From a virus: 64,000 nt of DNA. The stretch covers positions 1 to 64,000 of IMG/VR virus record IMGVR_UViG_3300042891_001963, one strand, 5' to 3'. The notes beneath the pieces are model-generated. The model searched no databases and had not been told where the DNA came from. It saw nothing but the letters and a program-made list of their open reading frames with translations. Made by a program: the position numbers and the translations under genes. Each line of letters begins with the position of its first letter. The first letter of the stretch is position 1. Positions 54,521-62,090 of this stretch are shown here, in pieces.

Positions 54521-56647
54521 ATGAAACCAGTATTAATTATAGAAAATTCACAAAACTCTCTTATTAGAGAGAATAATGGTTCTACTAAGAAGGATTATAT
54601 TTTAGGTGGTACATTCACAGAGTTCGGTGTTAAAAACCGTAATGAAAGAATTTATACTGCTGATAAATTTCTTCCAGCTTTAGATGAATTAAATGAAAGA
54701 ATGAGCAGTTTAGGCGTTGTTTATGGTGAGTTTGATCACCCAGATGTTTTTGACACATCTCTTTCAAGAGCATCACACATTATCACAAAAGCTAATTATG
54801 TAAAAGAATCAAATTTAGTTAATGGTGAAATTAGATTACTAAATACTTATTGGGGTAAAGAAGCAAAGGCATTAGTTGATGACGGATGTCCTGTTTTCGT
54901 TTCTTCAAGAGCTGCTGGTATCACTGAATCAGATGGTACTGTTTCATTGAAAAAATTATTTACATATGATATCGTTGCTGATCCGGGTTTTGCTTCTGCT
55001 AAAATGTCGGTTAAGAATATCAACGAATCATTAGGATATAATGAAAACTCTAACTTTAGGATATATGAAATGTCCGATGAGTCCAAAATAAATCAACTAT
55101 TTGATATGAACAAAAATGAATTTGTAACAAAGCAACAGTTAACTGAGTATTCACAATATTTAGTTAAAGAATTAGCTTCTACACAGAAAGAAGTTAAAGG
55201 TGCTCTTACTAAAGGTAACTTGTCTCCTAAGAAAATGGAGCAACTTTTAGAGTACTATGATGAGTTAAATTCAACTAATGCTCAAGTCGTTAAGTATTTA
55301 GATTATTTGGCTGAAAAAGTTCAAATTATGGTTAATGAAAACAAGTCTTTAAAGGAAACTACTGACAAACTTATTAAACACAATGACTATTTAGCTGAAA
55401 GTTTAGAAAAAGCTGTTAACTACTCTGAATATTTAGCTGAGAATTTAGACAAAAATATTGAGTATTCTGAATATTTAGCAGAAAACTTAGATAAAAACAT
55501 TTCTTATGCTGAGTATATCGCTGAGAACTTAGATAAGAATATTTCTTATTCTGAATATTTAGCAGAAAACTTAGATAAAAACATTGAGTACTCTGAGTAC
55601 TTAGCTGAAAATCTTGATAAGAATATTGCTTACTCAGAATACATCGCTGAAAACTTAGATAAAAACATTGCTTACTCTGAATACATTGCTGAGCATGTTG
55701 ATAACTCAATTGCTTACTCTGAATATTTAGCTGAACATGTTGAAGGTAACATTGCTTACTCTGAATACATTGCTGAACATTTAGATGATAATATTGCTTA
55801 CTCAGAATACATTGCTGAGAATCTTGATAAATCAATTAACTACCAAGGAATGATTGTTGAAAAATTAAATTCTGGTAAATTAAACGAATCAATGAATGAA
55901 AACGAAGAAGCTTTCCCTTCATTACAAGCCGCAGGTTTTGAAAATATGGAAGAGGAAGAAGAATCTTATAGTTCTGAAGAAGAAAATAATCAAGAAGAAT
56001 ACAATGGTATTGCTCCAGCTCACGAAGAAGAAGCATATAATAAAGAAGAAGATGAAGACTGCGGTCCATCTACAACTGAAGAAGAAAATGAAGAAGAAGC
56101 TCATGATTATGAAGTAACTGGTAACAGTGATTCTGAATTATCTGAGTCAATCAACAAATTAATAGAAGAAGCTAAAAAACGTAAAGTTTCTGAATCAAGT
56201 GACTTGAATTTCTTAAAATTCTTAAACAAGTCACAAGTAGATAGCTACTACGCTTTGTCTGATGAAGACCAAGAGGCTGTTAAATTTCACATAAGCGAAA
56301 GAAATTACTTCACATCTAAAGATGTGTTAAGCCTAATCGCAGAAGCGCTATCATCTAAGAATGAATCTCTTGAAGAAAGAGTAATCAGATTAATGCCTGA
56401 AAACACTAAGGCTATCTGGAGTCAAATGAATGAATCTGCTAAAAAATCTATCTTATCACAAGCTAGACTTTACCCAGCTGAAGTTTTAATGACTGAATCA
56501 CAAGTTGAGCATTTCTGGTTAACTAGAAAGCTTAAAACAAACGAGTCTGTAACTAAAAAGTTAGTAGCTCATGAAAGTTTAATACAAGAAGATAAACTTT
56601 CTGATAATGACGTTACTGCAATTATGGAAAGATTCAAAAACATTTAA
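54521..56647 (+). CDS. Prohead protease fused to scaffold (gp21 plus gp22-like)
   Basis: Residues ~1-165 are a gp21-type (S77) prohead protease: TFTEFGVKNRNERIY, GEFDHPDVF with catalytic His73, PVFVSSRAAG with Ser128/129, and YDIVADPGFASAKM. Residues ~165-300 are helical. Residues 301-440 are ten 14-residue repeats (YSEYLAENLDKNIE type), then an acidic region (EEEESYSSEEENNQEEYNG) and a final helical domain to residue 708. T4 has separate gp21 and gp22; here the scaffold core seems to be part of the same chain. The repeats contain LAE/IAE, like the protease's own cleavage sites. Followed by the capsid gene, as in T4. Confidence 0.85.
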   Translation: MKPVLIIENSQNSLIRENNGSTKKDYILGGTFTEFGVKNRNERIYTADKFLPALDELNERMSSLGVVYGEFDHPDVFDTSLSRASHIITKANYVKESNLVNGEIRLLNTYWGKEAKALVDDGCPVFVSSRAAGITESDGTVSLKKLFTYDIVADPGFASAKMSVKNINESLGYNENSNFRIYEMSDESKINQLFDMNKNEFVTKQQLTEYSQYLVKELASTQKEVKGALTKGNLSPKKMEQLLEYYDELNSTNAQVVKYLDYLAEKVQIMVNENKSLKETTDKLIKHNDYLAESLEKAVNYSEYLAENLDKNIEYSEYLAENLDKNISYAEYIAENLDKNISYSEYLAENLDKNIEYSEYLAENLDKNIAYSEYIAENLDKNIAYSEYIAEHVDNSIAYSEYLAEHVEGNIAYSEYIAEHLDDNIAYSEYIAENLDKSINYQGMIVEKLNSGKLNESMNENEEAFPSLQAAGFENMEEEEESYSSEEENNQEEYNGIAPAHEEEAYNKEEDEDCGPSTTEEENEEEAHDYEVTGNSDSELSESINKLIEEAKKRKVSESSDLNFLKFLNKSQVDSYYALSDEDQEAVKFHISERNYFTSKDVLSLIAEALSSKNESLEERVIRLMPENTKAIWSQMNESAKKSILSQARLYPAEVLMTESQVEHFWLTRKLKTNESVTKKLVAHESLIQEDKLSDNDVTAIMERFKNI
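55421..55840 (+). repeat. Ten in-frame 42-bp repeats (14 residues each)
   Basis: Ten copies of a 42-base unit encode Y-S/A-E-Y-L/I-A-E-N/H-L/V-D-x-N-I-x (14 residues, two heptads). The flanking units at 55379-55420 and 55841-55882 are degenerate copies. Each contains an (L/I)-A-E tripeptide. The unit length of two heptads predicts a parallel coiled coil. Confidence 0.85.
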
Positions 56648-56728: not shown

Positions 56729-58399
56729 ATGTCACACATTAGAATAGACAAATCAAAAGCGGTTAAGAAATGGGCTCCAGTTTTGGAAAACATGGGTGTA
56801 ACTGAGGATAGAGTTGAATGGATGTCAGAAATGGCTGAGTATCACTCAATCAATGAAAATGCGTATGTAAACGCAGCAAACGTAGCAGGTATGGGATCAG
56901 TTGTCGCTGCTCAACCATCATCACTATCTGGTTATTTAGGTGGTGCTACAATCGCTAACGGTCAAGTTGGATCAGGCGATGTTGGTCAAAACTTATTACC
57001 AGTTGCTATGAAAATCGCAGCTCAAACAATCGGTTTAGATTTAGTAGCTGTAAAACCAACTCCAGGTCCAAAAATTGATTTACTTTATATTGATTTCCAA
57101 TATGATGATATTGATACAACAACAAACGAAAGACCTCAAGTATTCAAATTAGCTACAACTACCCAAGATGCTGCTATTTACACTGCATTAGACAATGCTT
57201 TACCTGCAGGTGCTACTTTAAACCAAGGTGGTATCCAAGGTGGTAGACTTTGGTCAAAAATCAACAGTAACTCTTCACCAATGACATCTACTGAACCACC
57301 TGTAAAAACTAACCAAGTTGAGTTCTTAGGTTTCTCTCGTATTGATAATTTACCAATATTCAGAGCTTATAGACAAAGTAACTCTACTTCTATTGGTTCT
57401 TACAACAACTGGTTTGATGCTTCATTAAATACATTTGGACCTACTGTTTCAATGGTTTCTCAAATTACAAACGTAGCTGGTCTTACTGTTTCTGGTACTC
57501 CTACTATTACTTTAGTATCTGCTTTAGAAGATCATATCCCAGGTTTCTCTGCAAACTGGACATCTGCTGCTTCTGGTCAAGCTGCTGGTCAATACCCAAT
57601 GGGTCGTTTGGCTGATGATCAATCATATGCTGGTGTTATCGGACCAAAAATTTCTTCTAAAACTGTTGCAGTTGGTACTATTGAAGTATCTTCAGCTCTT
57701 AGAAGAACTGAAATTGAAGATATCAAAGCTAACACAGGTATGGATATCGTTCAAAAAATGGAGTCTATCCTTGTAAACGAATTATCTCAAACAATTTCTA
57801 AACAAATTGTTGCTAAGATTTTTGAAATGGGTGCTCTTAATGCTTCTACCGCTCCTATCAGAACAGGTACTGAGACAATCTTTGACTTAAACACTAACTA
57901 TGCTACTACTGCTGGTAATGTTGGTGGTGAAACTACTCACGCTGTTCAACGTAAGTTAATCACTAAGATTGCTCACGCTTCTAACTACATCGCTACTGAA
58001 GGTCGTGTAGGTCCTGCTCAATACCTTATCACAAACGGAGGTCTTGCTGCTGCTTTACAAGATATCGCTGGTTACACAATTAACCCAGTTAAATCTAAAT
58101 TAAACGGACAAGGTCAATTATACCCTGTAGGTTCAATCGGAGACATCTCTATCTATGTAGATCCATATATGAGATATAACGATAACAGAATCGTGTTAGG
58201 TCGTAAGAACAACCCTGACCAACCAGGTATCATTTTCGTACCTTACTTAATGGCTCAGTCTATCTCAGTTATCTCTGAAGCTACATTCGCTCCAAGAATG
58301 TTGTTACGTTCAAGATACGCTGTAACTGAAGTTGGTTGGTATCCACAAAAACAATATATGACTATTACAGTTACTGACGCTGCTCAGTTATTAAACTAA
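56729..58399 (+). CDS. Major capsid protein (T4 gp23-like)
   Basis: 556 residues, near gp23 size. The N-terminal ~43 residues (MSHIRIDKSKAVKKWAPVLENMG...YHS-INE) form a delta-like domain ending in I-N-E (residues 41-43), a good gp21-type cleavage site, after which NAYVNAANVAGMGSV begins the mature protein. Typical later parts are QNLLPVAMKIAAQTIGLDLVAVKPTPGPKIDLLYIDFQY and the HK97-fold core with ISSKTVAVGTIEVSSALRRTEIEDIKANTGMD. Codon use is shifted to C-ending codons, fitting the most abundant protein. It directly follows its scaffold-protease. Confidence 0.92.
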   Translation: MSHIRIDKSKAVKKWAPVLENMGVTEDRVEWMSEMAEYHSINENAYVNAANVAGMGSVVAAQPSSLSGYLGGATIANGQVGSGDVGQNLLPVAMKIAAQTIGLDLVAVKPTPGPKIDLLYIDFQYDDIDTTTNERPQVFKLATTTQDAAIYTALDNALPAGATLNQGGIQGGRLWSKINSNSSPMTSTEPPVKTNQVEFLGFSRIDNLPIFRAYRQSNSTSIGSYNNWFDASLNTFGPTVSMVSQITNVAGLTVSGTPTITLVSALEDHIPGFSANWTSAASGQAAGQYPMGRLADDQSYAGVIGPKISSKTVAVGTIEVSSALRRTEIEDIKANTGMDIVQKMESILVNELSQTISKQIVAKIFEMGALNASTAPIRTGTETIFDLNTNYATTAGNVGGETTHAVQRKLITKIAHASNYIATEGRVGPAQYLITNGGLAAALQDIAGYTINPVKSKLNGQGQLYPVGSIGDISIYVDPYMRYNDNRIVLGRKNNPDQPGIIFVPYLMAQSISVISEATFAPRMLLRSRYAVTEVGWYPQKQYMTITVTDAAQLLN

Positions 58400-58479: not shown

Positions 58480-59184
58480 ATGAAATATTTACTAATTGAA
58501 AATAGTGGTGATGATTCTGAAAATCGTGAATACGGAGATATAATTGTTAAATACTTTGATGATTTGACTGATGTTTATTCACATATCTGTAATGAACTAA
58601 TATATGAGGATTTAGACATAGAAGATTTTAAGAATGATCCTTATAGTAATGTTGAAGAAAGAGTTGAAGAACATGGATCTAGTTATTATATTTTTGAAGA
58701 TGAGAATGAATTGATATCATTAAAAATAGGTAATATAAAAGATGGTGATTGGGATAAATTCACAGATTTTTGTCTAGGTTTTATAAAAGAAAATAAAATA
58801 ATGAACTATAAATCATTTAACGAATCTAAAAAAGAAAAATTTCCTAACATACAGAAGTTAGAAATAGAAGGATTTATTGTTTATGTTGGTAAAGATGCTA
58901 AATCTAACGATCATTTGACTTTTAATGTTGCTGACAAAGAAGATATTTGGATGCATGTTAAAGGTGTTCCTGGTAGTCACGTTGTTATTCGTGTTAGAGA
59001 GAATTTACCAACAGAAACTGTTATTAAATCTGCTGCGGAATTGGCTAAAAAGAATAGTAAAGCATCAAAAGATGATAAAGCAACTGTTGTTTATTGTCAA
59101 AGTAGATTTGTTAAGAAAGAATCAGGTATGAATGATGGTCAGGTTAAAGTGGATTATACAAATTCCTATCAAATTGTAGTTTAA
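58480..59184 (+). CDS. NFACT-R (RqcH C-terminal-like) RNA-binding protein with internal targeting-like sequence (234 aa)
   Basis: Residues ~125-234 match the NFACT-R domain: EGFIVYVGKDAKSNDHLTFNVADKEDIWMHVKGVPGSHVVIRV...LPTETVIKSAAELAKKNSKAS...ATVVYCQSRFVKK. This is the domain of RqcH/NEMF-type ribosome quality-control factors that bind the 60S/50S subunit and tRNA. Residues 1-107 are an unrelated acidic region. At 58801 an in-frame ATG starts MNYKSFNESKKEKF, a perfect member of the tagged family, so the NFACT-R part might also be made alone from an internal start. The start at 58480 is set by the leaderless promoter. Role in ribosome rescue is inference. Confidence 0.75.
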   Translation: MKYLLIENSGDDSENREYGDIIVKYFDDLTDVYSHICNELIYEDLDIEDFKNDPYSNVEERVEEHGSSYYIFEDENELISLKIGNIKDGDWDKFTDFCLGFIKENKIMNYKSFNESKKEKFPNIQKLEIEGFIVYVGKDAKSNDHLTFNVADKEDIWMHVKGVPGSHVVIRVRENLPTETVIKSAAELAKKNSKASKDDKATVVYCQSRFVKKESGMNDGQVKVDYTNSYQIVV

Positions 59185-59220: not shown

Positions 59221-60594
59221 ATGGCAGATAATAAAGAACCTATAAGAATTAAATTTTCTGAAGAACTTCATGATTTATTAAAAGTTTTAGAAGATGAGAA
59301 TAGCTATATAGCATTTGAAATGCTTTGGTTGAACGAGCCTAATTCTAAATATCACAATGGTCTAGGAATTAGTGATGTTAATATATCTAAAACAAAATCT
59401 TGTTTAGATGTTACGTCTACAATTAATGGTGTTGTTGATGGTAAAGTTCACCCTATGAAAATAGAAAACTTTCTTAAATTTTACTTTAAGAATTACTTTC
59501 AAACTTCTGATATTCAAGAATTCATTGAACAGTATAATATATTAGCAGGTGGTGGTTCGGTTGAAAGTATTGCTGTTAATAGAATTACACCAGAACCTTT
59601 TAGTTACAATCCTAAAGATGTTAGAAGTACATTTATTTCATTGGTTACTAAGACATATCCTCACGGACATGAAGAAGAAGTAATGGCTTTTATGCCTAAA
59701 TTAGAAAAAGATATTGTAGGTAACTATTATAAAATCATTGGTGAGAATCCAACAACTATGTTTACATCTCACTTAGATACTGCTGATAGAAAACAAGGTA
59801 CTACTAAACTTCTTTCTAAGAAAGATGAAAATGGTGATGAAATTATTTATACTGATGGTTCTACTATATTAGGTGCTGATGATAAGTCAGGTGTTGCTGT
59901 TATGCTTTATATGATGGCTCATAATGTACCAGGTCTTTATTACTTCTTTATGGGAGAAGAAAGAGGTGGTATTGGTTCAGGTTTATTATCTTCGGTTTAT
60001 GAAAAAGTAGAATATGTTAAGAATATTAAGAGATGTGTTTCTTTTGATAGAAGAGATGTTAAATCTGTCATTACTTCACAATTAGGTAGAACTTGTTGTT
60101 CTGATGAATTTGGAACTGCTTTGGCTAAACAATATAATGCAAATGGTCTTAATTTATCATTAGATCCTACAGGTATATACACAGATTCTGCTTCATTTTT
60201 AGAACAAATTGCTGAATGTACTAACATATCAGTTGGTTATTATAATGAACATACTGGTAAAGAAAGACAAAATATTAACTTTCTGGAAAGACTTGCTAAG
60301 GCTAGTGTTCAAGTTAATTGGAATTCATTACCAACAGTTAGAAAAGTAGGAATTGATGAAGAAACTATTAGAAAATATGGTAAGTTAATTAATGACTTAA
60401 AAGCAACACCATTTGGTATTGATATTAAAATAGCATCTGATAGAGCTACTACTTTTATTCAATGTGATTTAGAAGAAGGTTATATTGATGAGACTTATGA
60501 AGCTTTAACAACACTACAATTCTTATTGAATAAACACAAAGTAAGTCAAAAAGTATATTTTGATGGAGAATACATAAAAATAGATTTATTATAA
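59221..60594 (+). CDS. Zinc aminopeptidase-like (M20/M28/M42-clan) protein (457 aa)
   Basis: Ligands of a co-catalytic zinc peptidase appear in order: MFTSHLDTADR (His, about residue 183), STILGADDKSGVAVMLYMM (Asp, about 221), YYFFMGEERGGIGSG (Glu-Glu, about 248-249), a CVSFDRRD (Asp) and GYYNEHTGKE (His, about 343). The N-terminal ~150 residues and the end (IKIASDRATTFIQCDLEEGY) are phage-specific. These enzymes remove N-terminal residues from peptides or hydrolyse peptide-like amides. In a phage with ClpS and many cleaved internal proteins, peptide recycling is conceivable. Its TAA overlaps the ATG of the next gene by one base. Confidence 0.75.
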   Translation: MADNKEPIRIKFSEELHDLLKVLEDENSYIAFEMLWLNEPNSKYHNGLGISDVNISKTKSCLDVTSTINGVVDGKVHPMKIENFLKFYFKNYFQTSDIQEFIEQYNILAGGGSVESIAVNRITPEPFSYNPKDVRSTFISLVTKTYPHGHEEEVMAFMPKLEKDIVGNYYKIIGENPTTMFTSHLDTADRKQGTTKLLSKKDENGDEIIYTDGSTILGADDKSGVAVMLYMMAHNVPGLYYFFMGEERGGIGSGLLSSVYEKVEYVKNIKRCVSFDRRDVKSVITSQLGRTCCSDEFGTALAKQYNANGLNLSLDPTGIYTDSASFLEQIAECTNISVGYYNEHTGKERQNINFLERLAKASVQVNWNSLPTVRKVGIDEETIRKYGKLINDLKATPFGIDIKIASDRATTFIQCDLEEGYIDETYEALTTLQFLLNKHKVSQKVYFDGEYIKIDLL

Positions 60595-61046
60595 TGAAAC
60601 TTAAAAAATTTAACCAACTATTTGAAAGAGAAGGTTTTGATGATATATATGAGCCTTTTGATGATGATGATTATAATGATTATCGTTATGATAAAGAATA
60701 TAAAGGTGAAGATGAGGATGATTCAGATGATGATATGTCACATCTTTGTTATCTTTTAAGATCTATGTTTAATAATAATAATATTGATGTTAATGTTGAA
60801 AATAGTGGATTGGATTTATCTATTACTGCTCAATTTGCCAGAAGAGAATCACTTAGTGATATCGTTAGAGTATTTGAAGTTATTAAGAAAATTAAAAAAG
60901 ATATTTTAGCTCAATACTCTTCGTCTTATGAAATGTGGGAAACTAAATCTGGTTCACCTATGATTACATTTGAATTTATGTTAGAAGATGATGATGATAA
61001 AGATGGTGTAGTTACAGATGATAAGGATGATGATTATCCTTGGTAA
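60594..61046 (+). CDS. Acidic tagged protein (150 aa)
   Basis: MKLKKFNQLFEREGFDD is a tagged-family start with L-F-E near residue 11. It continues with highly acidic stretches (YEPFDDDDYNDYRYDKEYKGEDEDDSDDD and MLEDDDDKDGVVTDDKDDDYPW) around a small helical core (LCYLLRSMFNNNNIDVNVENSGLDLSITAQF...VFEVIKKIKKDIL). The core resembles none I know. An acidic, DNA-mimic-like or charge-balancing head protein is possible. It overlaps the peptidase stop by one base. Confidence 0.65.
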   Translation: MKLKKFNQLFEREGFDDIYEPFDDDDYNDYRYDKEYKGEDEDDSDDDMSHLCYLLRSMFNNNNIDVNVENSGLDLSITAQFARRESLSDIVRVFEVIKKIKKDILAQYSSSYEMWETKSGSPMITFEFMLEDDDDKDGVVTDDKDDDYPW

Positions 61047-61066
61047 TTTTTAAAATTTCTAAACTT

Positions 61067-61098
61067 TTTGCTATTTCAGAATATTATATATATATTTG
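61067..61098 (+). promoter_or_regulatory. Bacteroidota-type promoter TTTG-N20-TATATTTG for the tmRNA
   Basis: TTTG at 61067-61070 and TATATTTG at 61091-61098 are 20 bases apart, exactly like the promoter at 32208. It lies 20 bases before the mature 5' end of the tmRNA. Confidence 0.75.
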
Positions 61099-61117
61099 TA
61101 GAATAATAAACACACTT

Positions 61118-61496
61118 GGGGATGTTTTAGAATTGATTTGCGGAGTGGTGGTGATTATGCGGGTATCGGGTTGTCGTATGACCGATTAATAAATTAGATG
61201 GTAAAGTCGTAAATGGCAAAACAAATGAAGTAGCTAGCAATGAAGATTTAGTATTTGCGCTACAAAACAACATGATCTTGGTAGAAGATCTAGCAACTGT
61301 CTAACAACAGTTACTATCAAAAAATTCTCCAACTTGTTTCACACAAGAATAAAATAGTGAAATGGTTTTTTGTTACTTATTAGAGTTTCTCAAAAAAAGT
61401 AAAAAGTTTGTAAGTTTATAAAAATTTACTACGCCTGTGAATGAATAATTATTAACAACCGAAAAAGACACGTTGGGCAGTACAACGTCATCTCCA
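61118..61496 (+). ncRNA. ssrA: Probable transfer-messenger RNA (tmRNA) with unusual tag
   Basis: No protein gene fits this 379-base stretch. Its ends pair as a seven-base acceptor stem, GGGGATG (61118-61124) with CATCTCC (61489-61495), followed by A. Just before the 3' strand is a T-arm-like hairpin CGTTG-GGCAGTA-CAACG. Inside, after AAAGTC (near 61203), an open frame reads GTAAATGGCAAAACAAATG... to TAA at about 61301-61303, about 31 codons, ending -EDLATV; its stop lies in the loop of the stem AACTGT/ACAGTT, as in helix 5 of tmRNAs. The conserved G-A-U-U-C-G-A region is degenerate and CCA is not encoded. SmpB is not in the window. It is flanked by a host-type promoter and a terminator. Confidence 0.7.
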
Positions 61497-61501
61497 CAAG
61501 A

Positions 61502-61530
61502 ACAAAGACCAGTAATGGTCTTTTGTTATT
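61502..61530 (+). terminator. Terminator of the tmRNA
   Basis: ACAAAGACCA and TGGTCTTTTGT pair around GTAA (one bulge), followed by TATTTT, six bases after the mature 3' end. Confidence 0.75.
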
Positions 61531-61571
61531 TTAAAGAGGTAAACTTTATTAATTTGATTGATATAATAACT

Positions 61572-62090
61572 ATGATTGATAAATTTGAAGGTCGTTATAG
61601 ATTCTTATCCAATTTCTATCCGTGTAAGATAGAACACCAAGGTATTAAATACCCGTCAGTTGAGAACTTTTATGTGGCTATGAAAGTAAATGACCAACAA
61701 TTAATTAATGGTACTTACTATACGCCAGGTGATTTTCGTGAAATGATTGCTAGAATTACCAATCCTGCTGAGGTTAAAAAACTTGGTTCTAAAGTTAAAT
61801 TAAGAACGGGTTGGGATGAAAAGAAATTAGAAGTTATGAATTGGGCTGTACGTCAAAAATTCAAAGAAGAAACTTTAGCTGAATTATTATTATCTACTGA
61901 AGACCAAGAGTTAATTGAAGGTACGTGGTGGCATGATAAATTTTGGGGTATATGTGTTTGTACAAAATGTGCTGGTAAAGGTGAGAATCATTTAGGTAAG
62001 ATTCTTATGGAAGTAAGAGAAGAATTAAAATTATCAAATCAAAAACCTTCAATTCAAGATATAATAAAAGACAAAAATAAATTAAATTAA
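61572..62090 (+). CDS. NADAR-family protein (172 aa)
   Basis: The start MIDKFEGRYRFLSNFYPCKIEHQGIKYPSVENFYVAMKVNDQ is a typical NADAR/YbiA opening (FLSNFYP..., YPSVEH/N-x-Y-x-A-x-K), followed by FREMIARITNPAEVKKLGSKVKLRTGWDEKKLEVM and ELIEGTWWHDKFWGICVCTKCAGKGENHLGKILMEVRE. NADAR proteins cleave N-glycosidic bonds in NAD/ADP-ribose derivatives and can remove ADP-ribose from nucleic-acid bases. In phages this could counter DarT-like defences. I place the start at 61572 rather than at an upstream in-frame ATG that overlaps the tmRNA. Its neighbour is a Dam-type methylase. Confidence 0.85.
   Translation: MIDKFEGRYRFLSNFYPCKIEHQGIKYPSVENFYVAMKVNDQQLINGTYYTPGDFREMIARITNPAEVKKLGSKVKLRTGWDEKKLEVMNWAVRQKFKEETLAELLLSTEDQELIEGTWWHDKFWGICVCTKCAGKGENHLGKILMEVREELKLSNQKPSIQDIIKDKNKLN

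Follow-up and report, generated by a model that had tools for sequence, protein, structure and literature searches.

The window analysed here comprises the first 64,000 nucleotides of virus record IMGVR_UViG_3300042891_001963, which is 67,963 bp long. It carries a major capsid protein gene at 56729-58399 and, downstream of this, a stretch of 379 bases (61118-61496) between a small acidic open reading frame (60594-61046) and a NADAR-domain gene (~61575-62090). A first-pass annotation made from the sequence had singled out this stretch as gene-free and had proposed that it encodes a tmRNA with an unusually long tag; we found the gene-free stretch at precisely this place, and all features of the RNA and its flanking signals described below lie on the plus strand. 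For the capsid protein, identity is 73% with the 635-kb phage LR745206.1, 72% with the 642-kb phage LR756502.1, ~52% with both LR756501.1 (735 kb) and LR756504.1 (636 kb), and 29% with the Prevotella Lak phages. Judging from these identities, the window belongs to a megaphage of the Mahaphage type. For Mahaphage genomes larger than 634 kb, the predicted hosts are Bacteroidetes (PMC7162821).

Several other proteins encoded in this region deserve mention. A prohead-protease-like protein (54521-56647, plus strand) contains many near-identical repeats of ~14 residues (NIxYSEYLAENLDK), i.e. a long repetitive stretch within a head-assembly protein. A stand-alone NFACT-R domain protein (58480-59184, plus strand; Pfam E 5e-16) is encoded ~2 kb upstream of the gene-free stretch, can be aligned to RqcH (residues 428-552), a ribosome quality-control factor of bacteria, and was found in 64 of 85 related loci, mostly at a similar position; it is possibly a second ribosome-rescue component. 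The product of 59221-60594 (plus strand), conserved near the capsid gene, weakly resembles peptidase T (NCBIfam E 7e-11, far under the cut-off; no Pfam match). The NADAR-domain protein (61575-62090, plus strand), which lies immediately 3' of the stretch at a conserved position, belongs to the riboflavin-intermediate N-glycosidase family and also weakly matches an anti-phage NADAR family, and could be a counter-defence enzyme.

We searched for relatives of the stretch by blastn, which located it in LR745206.1 (79% identity) and LR756502.1 (71%), and gathered 80 IMG/VR loci via the capsid protein. Of 85 related loci, 61 contained the element according to an nhmmer search that started from the window's copy alone; as a rule it follows the capsid gene at a distance of 2-4 kb, and the related loci without it mostly stop shortly after that gene. 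Altogether, 48 distinct full-length homologous sequences were obtained. A pattern derived from the predicted tag region matched 106 IMG/VR contigs and had no exact match in 84,980 prokaryotic genomes. Some sequences were misaligned at the 5' end in the two alignments used (A1 and A2; L006 in A2), and leaving them in or dropping them did not change the result.

The ends of the element resemble those of a tRNA. As the first-pass annotation had recognised, GGGGATG (61118-61124) and CATCTCC (61489-61495) form a 7-bp acceptor stem, which was 99.2% paired across 38 homologues, with double changes at two pairs. The third pair, corresponding to the G3.U70 identity pair, was a G.U in 37 of the 38. The window encodes ACAA at 61496-61499 and the homologues encode ACAA, ACTA or ACCA at this 3' end; therefore, the CCA terminus would in most cases need to be completed. 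Next to the acceptor stem is a T-arm (61470-61488, ACGTTG-GGCAGTA-CAACGT), the 6-bp stem of which was 98.7% paired with compensatory changes in five of the six pairs, and the 7-nt loop of which departs from the UUCRANU consensus in being GGCAGUA-like in nearly all sequences of the family. The D-loop-like region (61128-61140) reads TAGAATTGATTTG in the window, whereas two homologues, L032 and L073, have TGGATTCGCC, which is near the canonical GGATTCGAC; that is, the GGxUUCGA consensus is degenerate in the window (where UAGAAUUGAU stands in place of UGGAUUCGCC, retained almost canonically in L073 and L032). The comparison with homologues thus upholds the hairpin proposed as a T-arm as well as the earlier observation that the T-loop lacks TTC and that the D region is off-consensus. 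We note that the UUCRANU T-loop and the GGxUUCGA D region are typical of tmRNA and are not required for membership.

A structure of 51 base pairs, drawn by hand for the whole predicted RNA body (61118-61495), was scored on the 38 homologues in alignment A2. It was paired in 92.0% of 1915 cells, compared with 33-41% when slid along the alignment and 82% when shuffled; the structure was drawn partly from the same alignment, and the slid control is flattering for that reason. That alone, however, does not account for the compensatory changes: both sides had changed in 35 of the 51 pairs, and the covariation score was 0.341, compared with 0.160 after shuffling. Within this structure, helix H2 is formed by 5' strands in 61141-61164 (61141-61143 and 61159-61164; 99-100% paired, with double changes) and by the covarying 3' strands GCCTGT and CCG in 61433-61461, which the RF00023 alignment also places; the region of the canonical CTAAGCATGTAG motif in the 3' strand reads CTACGCCTGTGA in the window. 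Pseudoknot PK1 (61165-61202) consists of stems 61165-61169/61182-61186 and 61173-61176/61199-61202, which were 100% and 93% paired, respectively, with compensatory changes. Both stems of PK2 (61333-61361; CTTG/CAAG and TTCAC/GTGAA) covary and were 79% and 87% paired. The PK4-like hairpin (61410-61429; GTAAG...TTTAC, with a conserved A-rich loop) was 93% paired with double changes in all five pairs, and a PK3-like stem (61373-61402; TTACTT/AAGTAA), 70% paired in an ambiguous part of the alignment, is less certain; for PK3 and PK4 the structure covers one stem each. On this comparative evidence, we conclude that 61118-61495 is a divergent one-piece tmRNA gene with tmRNA-specific architecture.

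The standard tools gave a mixed picture. ARAGORN found no tRNA and no tmRNA in the window, Rfam returned nothing relevant in the window at the gathering score and nothing tmRNA-related in 61000-61600 at E values up to 10, and a search of the window's own record with the bacterial tmRNA model RF00023 returned nothing. RF00023 did match homologues L073 (33.4 bits, E 9e-12) and L032 (32.8 bits, E 1.6e-11) end to end, over model positions 1-374, with scores under the model cut-off of 47 bits; apart from these two, ARAGORN and Rfam miss the whole family. Faint partial RF00023 matches at other places in the megaphage genomes were not counted; those checked lay mostly inside tRNA arrays. The match across 61118-61496 that the first-pass annotation had named as support was thus absent from the window itself and present in its homologues. 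Because close homologues do match RF00023, the missing match in the window, which the first-pass annotation would have taken as a refutation, is best read as divergence and not as absence of a tmRNA. An unrelated conserved non-coding RNA or small protein gene, resembling a tmRNA by chance, would account for the window having no direct ARAGORN or Rfam match and for the inner frame having no ATG at its start. However, this explanation is already contradicted by the end-to-end RF00023 matches to homologues, by the covarying tmRNA-specific architecture and by the UAAAU/G resume site (the slash precedes the resume codon) that the recognised tmRNAs of sister phages have as well, and we find it scarcely credible.

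We then considered the internal reading frame. One inner frame was open in 48 of 48 homologues, and stops were always present in both other frames. Gaps inside this frame were only 3 or 6 nt long, whereas those beyond it were mostly 1 or 2 nt. By parsimony, the tag had 90 changes at first, 78 at second and 136 at third codon positions, a moderate third-position excess. Because pN/pS differed little between the frames (0.61 vs 0.70 and 0.73), we relied on the open frames, the indel phase and the parsimony counts. Taken at the sequence level, the tag frame is real, conserved and translated-looking, and it would presumably be translated. The first-pass annotation had described a frame of about 31 codons from near 61203; the frame and its end held up, but the start did not. 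Resumption at GGC 61215 would give 29 codons followed by a TAA stop at 61302-61304 (61215-61304 in all), and the figure of ~31 corresponds to a start at GUA 61209. GGC is preceded by UAAAU (61210-61214), in which U at -5 and A at -4 are invariant (alignment columns T95, A96 and A97); these are equivalent (61210-61211) to E. coli U85 and A86, which have a role at the resume site (PMC2481249). A start at 61203-61209 was rejected, as the invariance of U-A at -5/-4 holds only relative to GGC 61215. Given this invariance, the RF00023 alignment of model UAAuU/GCa on UAAAU/GGC in the homologues, and the reading of the same UAAAU/GGC site by ARAGORN in sister phage LR756500, GGC 61215 is most likely the resume codon.

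The predicted tag, GKTNEVASNEDLVFALQNNMILVEDLATV, is 29 amino acids long, bearing out the expectation of a tag that ends DLATV and has about three times the usual length, the commonest length in the 2025 tmRNA database being 10 amino acids (PMC11915505). Across the family, tags are 27-30 amino acids long and have A or V as their last residue (LVVA, LATV, PELV, LATA, LELA and others), always with an aliphatic residue close before this hydrophobic end; the tag of homologue L001, for example, is GNVNEVVTREDLVAALQNNMLLVEEPATV. The stop codon had been placed in a hairpin loop, and indeed a predicted hairpin (H5; 61294-61311, AACTGT-CTAACA-ACAGTT in the window) encloses it in 48 of 48 homologues (mean z -2.0), with a hairpin sequence that differs between lineages.

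The element is flanked by candidate expression signals of the kind that the first-pass annotation had anticipated. A Bacteroidetes-type promoter-like sequence (61068-61098) consists of TTG at 61068-61070 and a predicted -7 element, TATATTTG (TANNTTTG), at 61091-61098, which ends 19 nt before G1 of the tmRNA. TANNTTTG ends 20 nt or less from G1 in 11 of 49 distinct upstream sequences, where chance would give 0.014 per sequence in 21 offsets, and within ~30 nt in most. We regard 61068-61098 as a putative promoter of the tmRNA. On the other side, AAAGACCAGTAATGGTCTTT (61504-61523) is a predicted rho-independent-type terminator hairpin, and most homologues likewise have a hairpin downstream of the gene, with varying sequence.

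We next looked for the protein partners of a tmRNA. SmpB genes are present in LR745206, LR756502, LR756501 and LR756504 and in two element-carrying IMG/VR contigs, and the two SmpB proteins that were scanned both scored above SmpB equivalog cut-offs; SmpB was not found in the 68-kb record holding the window, which is a fragment. The proposal of a phage-encoded tmRNA with a long tag is therefore supported by covariation, by the RF00023 matches to homologues, by the conserved open frame and by SmpB in relatives. A tmRNA-derived decoy is an alternative, in which the tRNA-like domain is kept and titrates host SmpB or occupies ribosomes without tagging. Phage DS6A, with its TLD-only tmRNA, has been proposed as such a case, and inhibition of host tmRNA by TLD-only phage tmRNA (PMC4131195, PMC11915505), together with the divergent T-loop of the window family, would fit it. 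We nevertheless consider a decoy very improbable, since it would lose the tag frame, the resume-site UA, the H5 stop hairpin and PK1, all of which are conserved here, and since the relatives have SmpB genes of their own.

With respect to degradation, ClpP-family genes occur in LR745206 and LR756502, ClpP was found in five of the seven phage records searched, and the one LR756502 ClpP that was scanned scores above the equivalog cut-off of the ClpP model PRK14514. The same seven records yielded no Lon. LR745206 and LR756502 also encode a double-AAA+ protein; like ClpC, the one in LR745206 contains both a UVR motif and a VGF loop. This protein scores under the ClpA and ClpB equivalog cut-offs, and the description "ClpC-like" therefore rests on the motif and the loop. 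We note that LR745206, LR756502 and LR756504 have two or three ClpP-family genes per megaphage besides a ClpC-like AAA+ unfoldase, possibly a phage-owned protease system.

Overall, we think it very probable that 61118-61495 is a functional, highly diverged one-piece tmRNA, tagging mechanism included, of a Mahaphage-clade megaphage infecting Bacteroidota; what the compared sequences show directly is homology to tmRNA, a conserved structure, a conserved frame and the joint presence of SmpB and Clp genes. We infer the steps of transcription, charging, tagging and degradation, and the involvement of a protease, as follows. The RNA would be transcribed from its own promoter and trimmed, CCA would be added, and, by analogy with established tmRNA biology, AlaRS would charge it with alanine via G3.U70. 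Together with SmpB (phage-encoded in relatives), the tmRNA would enter ribosomes stalled at broken mRNA ends, and the nascent chain would be transferred to its alanine. The ribosome would then resume at GGC 61215, append GKTNEVASNEDLVFALQNNMILVEDLATV and end at the TAA in H5. The hydrophobic A/V C terminus would be expected to act as an ssrA-type degron for host ClpXP or for the phage ClpC-like/ClpP proteins; which protease reads the tag is a matter of speculation.

It had been suggested that a divergent tag end could change which protease sees the tag, and this is plausible. In E. coli, tags ending LAA or LVA are more destabilising than those ending AAV or ASV (PMC9097571), and V-ending tags might for this reason be slower degrons for host ClpXP, or might be read by phage ClpC-like/ClpP. 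More specifically, the megaphages could run their own trans-translation and degradation line, in which divergent tmRNA and phage SmpB feed phage ClpC-like/ClpP instead of the host pathway, perhaps with the NFACT-R protein; we offer this tentatively and think it rather unlikely. The family could also be a working tmRNA with a tag that is not mainly a degron, so that ribosomes are rescued and proteins are left with a long tag that is fairly stable or routed in a special way. Ribosome rescue can matter by itself without degradation, the tags end in TV, LV, VA, TA and the like and not in LAA, and the weaker E. coli AAV and ASV degrons (PMC9097571) point the same way; yet every tag retains a hydrophobic A/V end and a nearby aliphatic residue, and the phages possess ClpP and a ClpC-like unfoldase, so we judge a mainly non-degron tag unlikely.

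Compared with the bacterial one-piece tmRNA (ssrA, RF00023), the tmRNA proposed here has the same acceptor with a G.U pair, T-arm, H2 and PK1, a resume codon that begins with G and is preceded by UA at -5/-4, a stop codon within H5, probable further pseudoknots and a CTAAGCxTGT-like motif. It differs in that the window falls under detection, the T-loop is GGCAGUA and not UUCRANU, the D region is TAGAAUUGA and not GGAUUCGA, and the tag is 27-30 amino acids long. A long tag with a hydrophobic end is also found in the Mesoplasma florum tmRNA, the 27-amino acid tag of which (AANKNEENTNEVPTFMLNAGQANYAFA) is recognised by Mf-Lon, an instance of a long tag that functions as a degron for a dedicated protease (PMC9097571). 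That tmRNA, however, is cellular and Lon-dependent, whereas the phage records hold ClpP (5/7) and no Lon (0/7), and the NTNEV string common to the M. florum and window tags is probably a coincidence.

Lists of phage tmRNAs date back to 2014 or earlier and include those of the mycobacteriophage Bxz1 group, Wildcat, Bacillus phage G and DS6A (PMC4131195), and tmRNA and SmpB have already been reported in huge phages (PMC7162821). The Bxz1 group, Wildcat, phage G and DS6A tmRNAs are likewise phage-borne but belong to other hosts, and are likened here by description and not by sequence. One tmRNA is reportedly present in Mar_Mega_1 (OU342829). What is new here is a divergent, widespread family that ARAGORN misses and that Rfam misses at its cut-off, with a non-canonical GGCAGUA T-loop and a long non-LAA tag ending in A or V; a search of papers available without subscription found no description of it. 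Earlier megaphage surveys assigned tmRNAs by ARAGORN (PMC7162821), and the 2025 tmRNA database was built mainly on ARAGORN and on BLASTN searches of RefSeq viruses (PMC11915505). The family would escape both, and the homologue alignment would allow it to be detected and counted.

The other Mahaphage tmRNAs share the phage clade and the UAAAU/G resume site with the window family, but are more canonical and have another genome place and another tag. In sister Mahaphage LR756500, the tmRNA scores 95 bits with RF00023 and ARAGORN reads the tag GNNAEMRMAA. The Lak phage tmRNAs score 48-49 bits (Lak-B5 tag by eye, DDEIEFRMAA), and that of LR756504 scores 65 bits (tag by eye, DNVNSFEQSILNELFAPVEMAVAA). 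The 735-kb LR756501 has a weak RF00023 match of ~21 bits (L100, 718200-718900), where neither the acceptor nor the T-arm is easily assigned; its tag, again by eye, has 33 codons and ends VEDLVLA (GDYKMNAEDMMSIPTSLTGKVATESFVEDLVLA). Going by these by-eye readings, LR756504 and LR756501, the two largest of the sister phages compared, thus have long tags like the window family. Tags in this one phage clade therefore form a graded series, from 10 amino acids ending MAA (Lak and a 462-kb phage) to 24-33 amino acids in the largest phages. This series is a natural setting in which to study which features are indispensable to a tmRNA tag, and whether tagged proteins can be steered by a phage towards a protease that it encodes itself.
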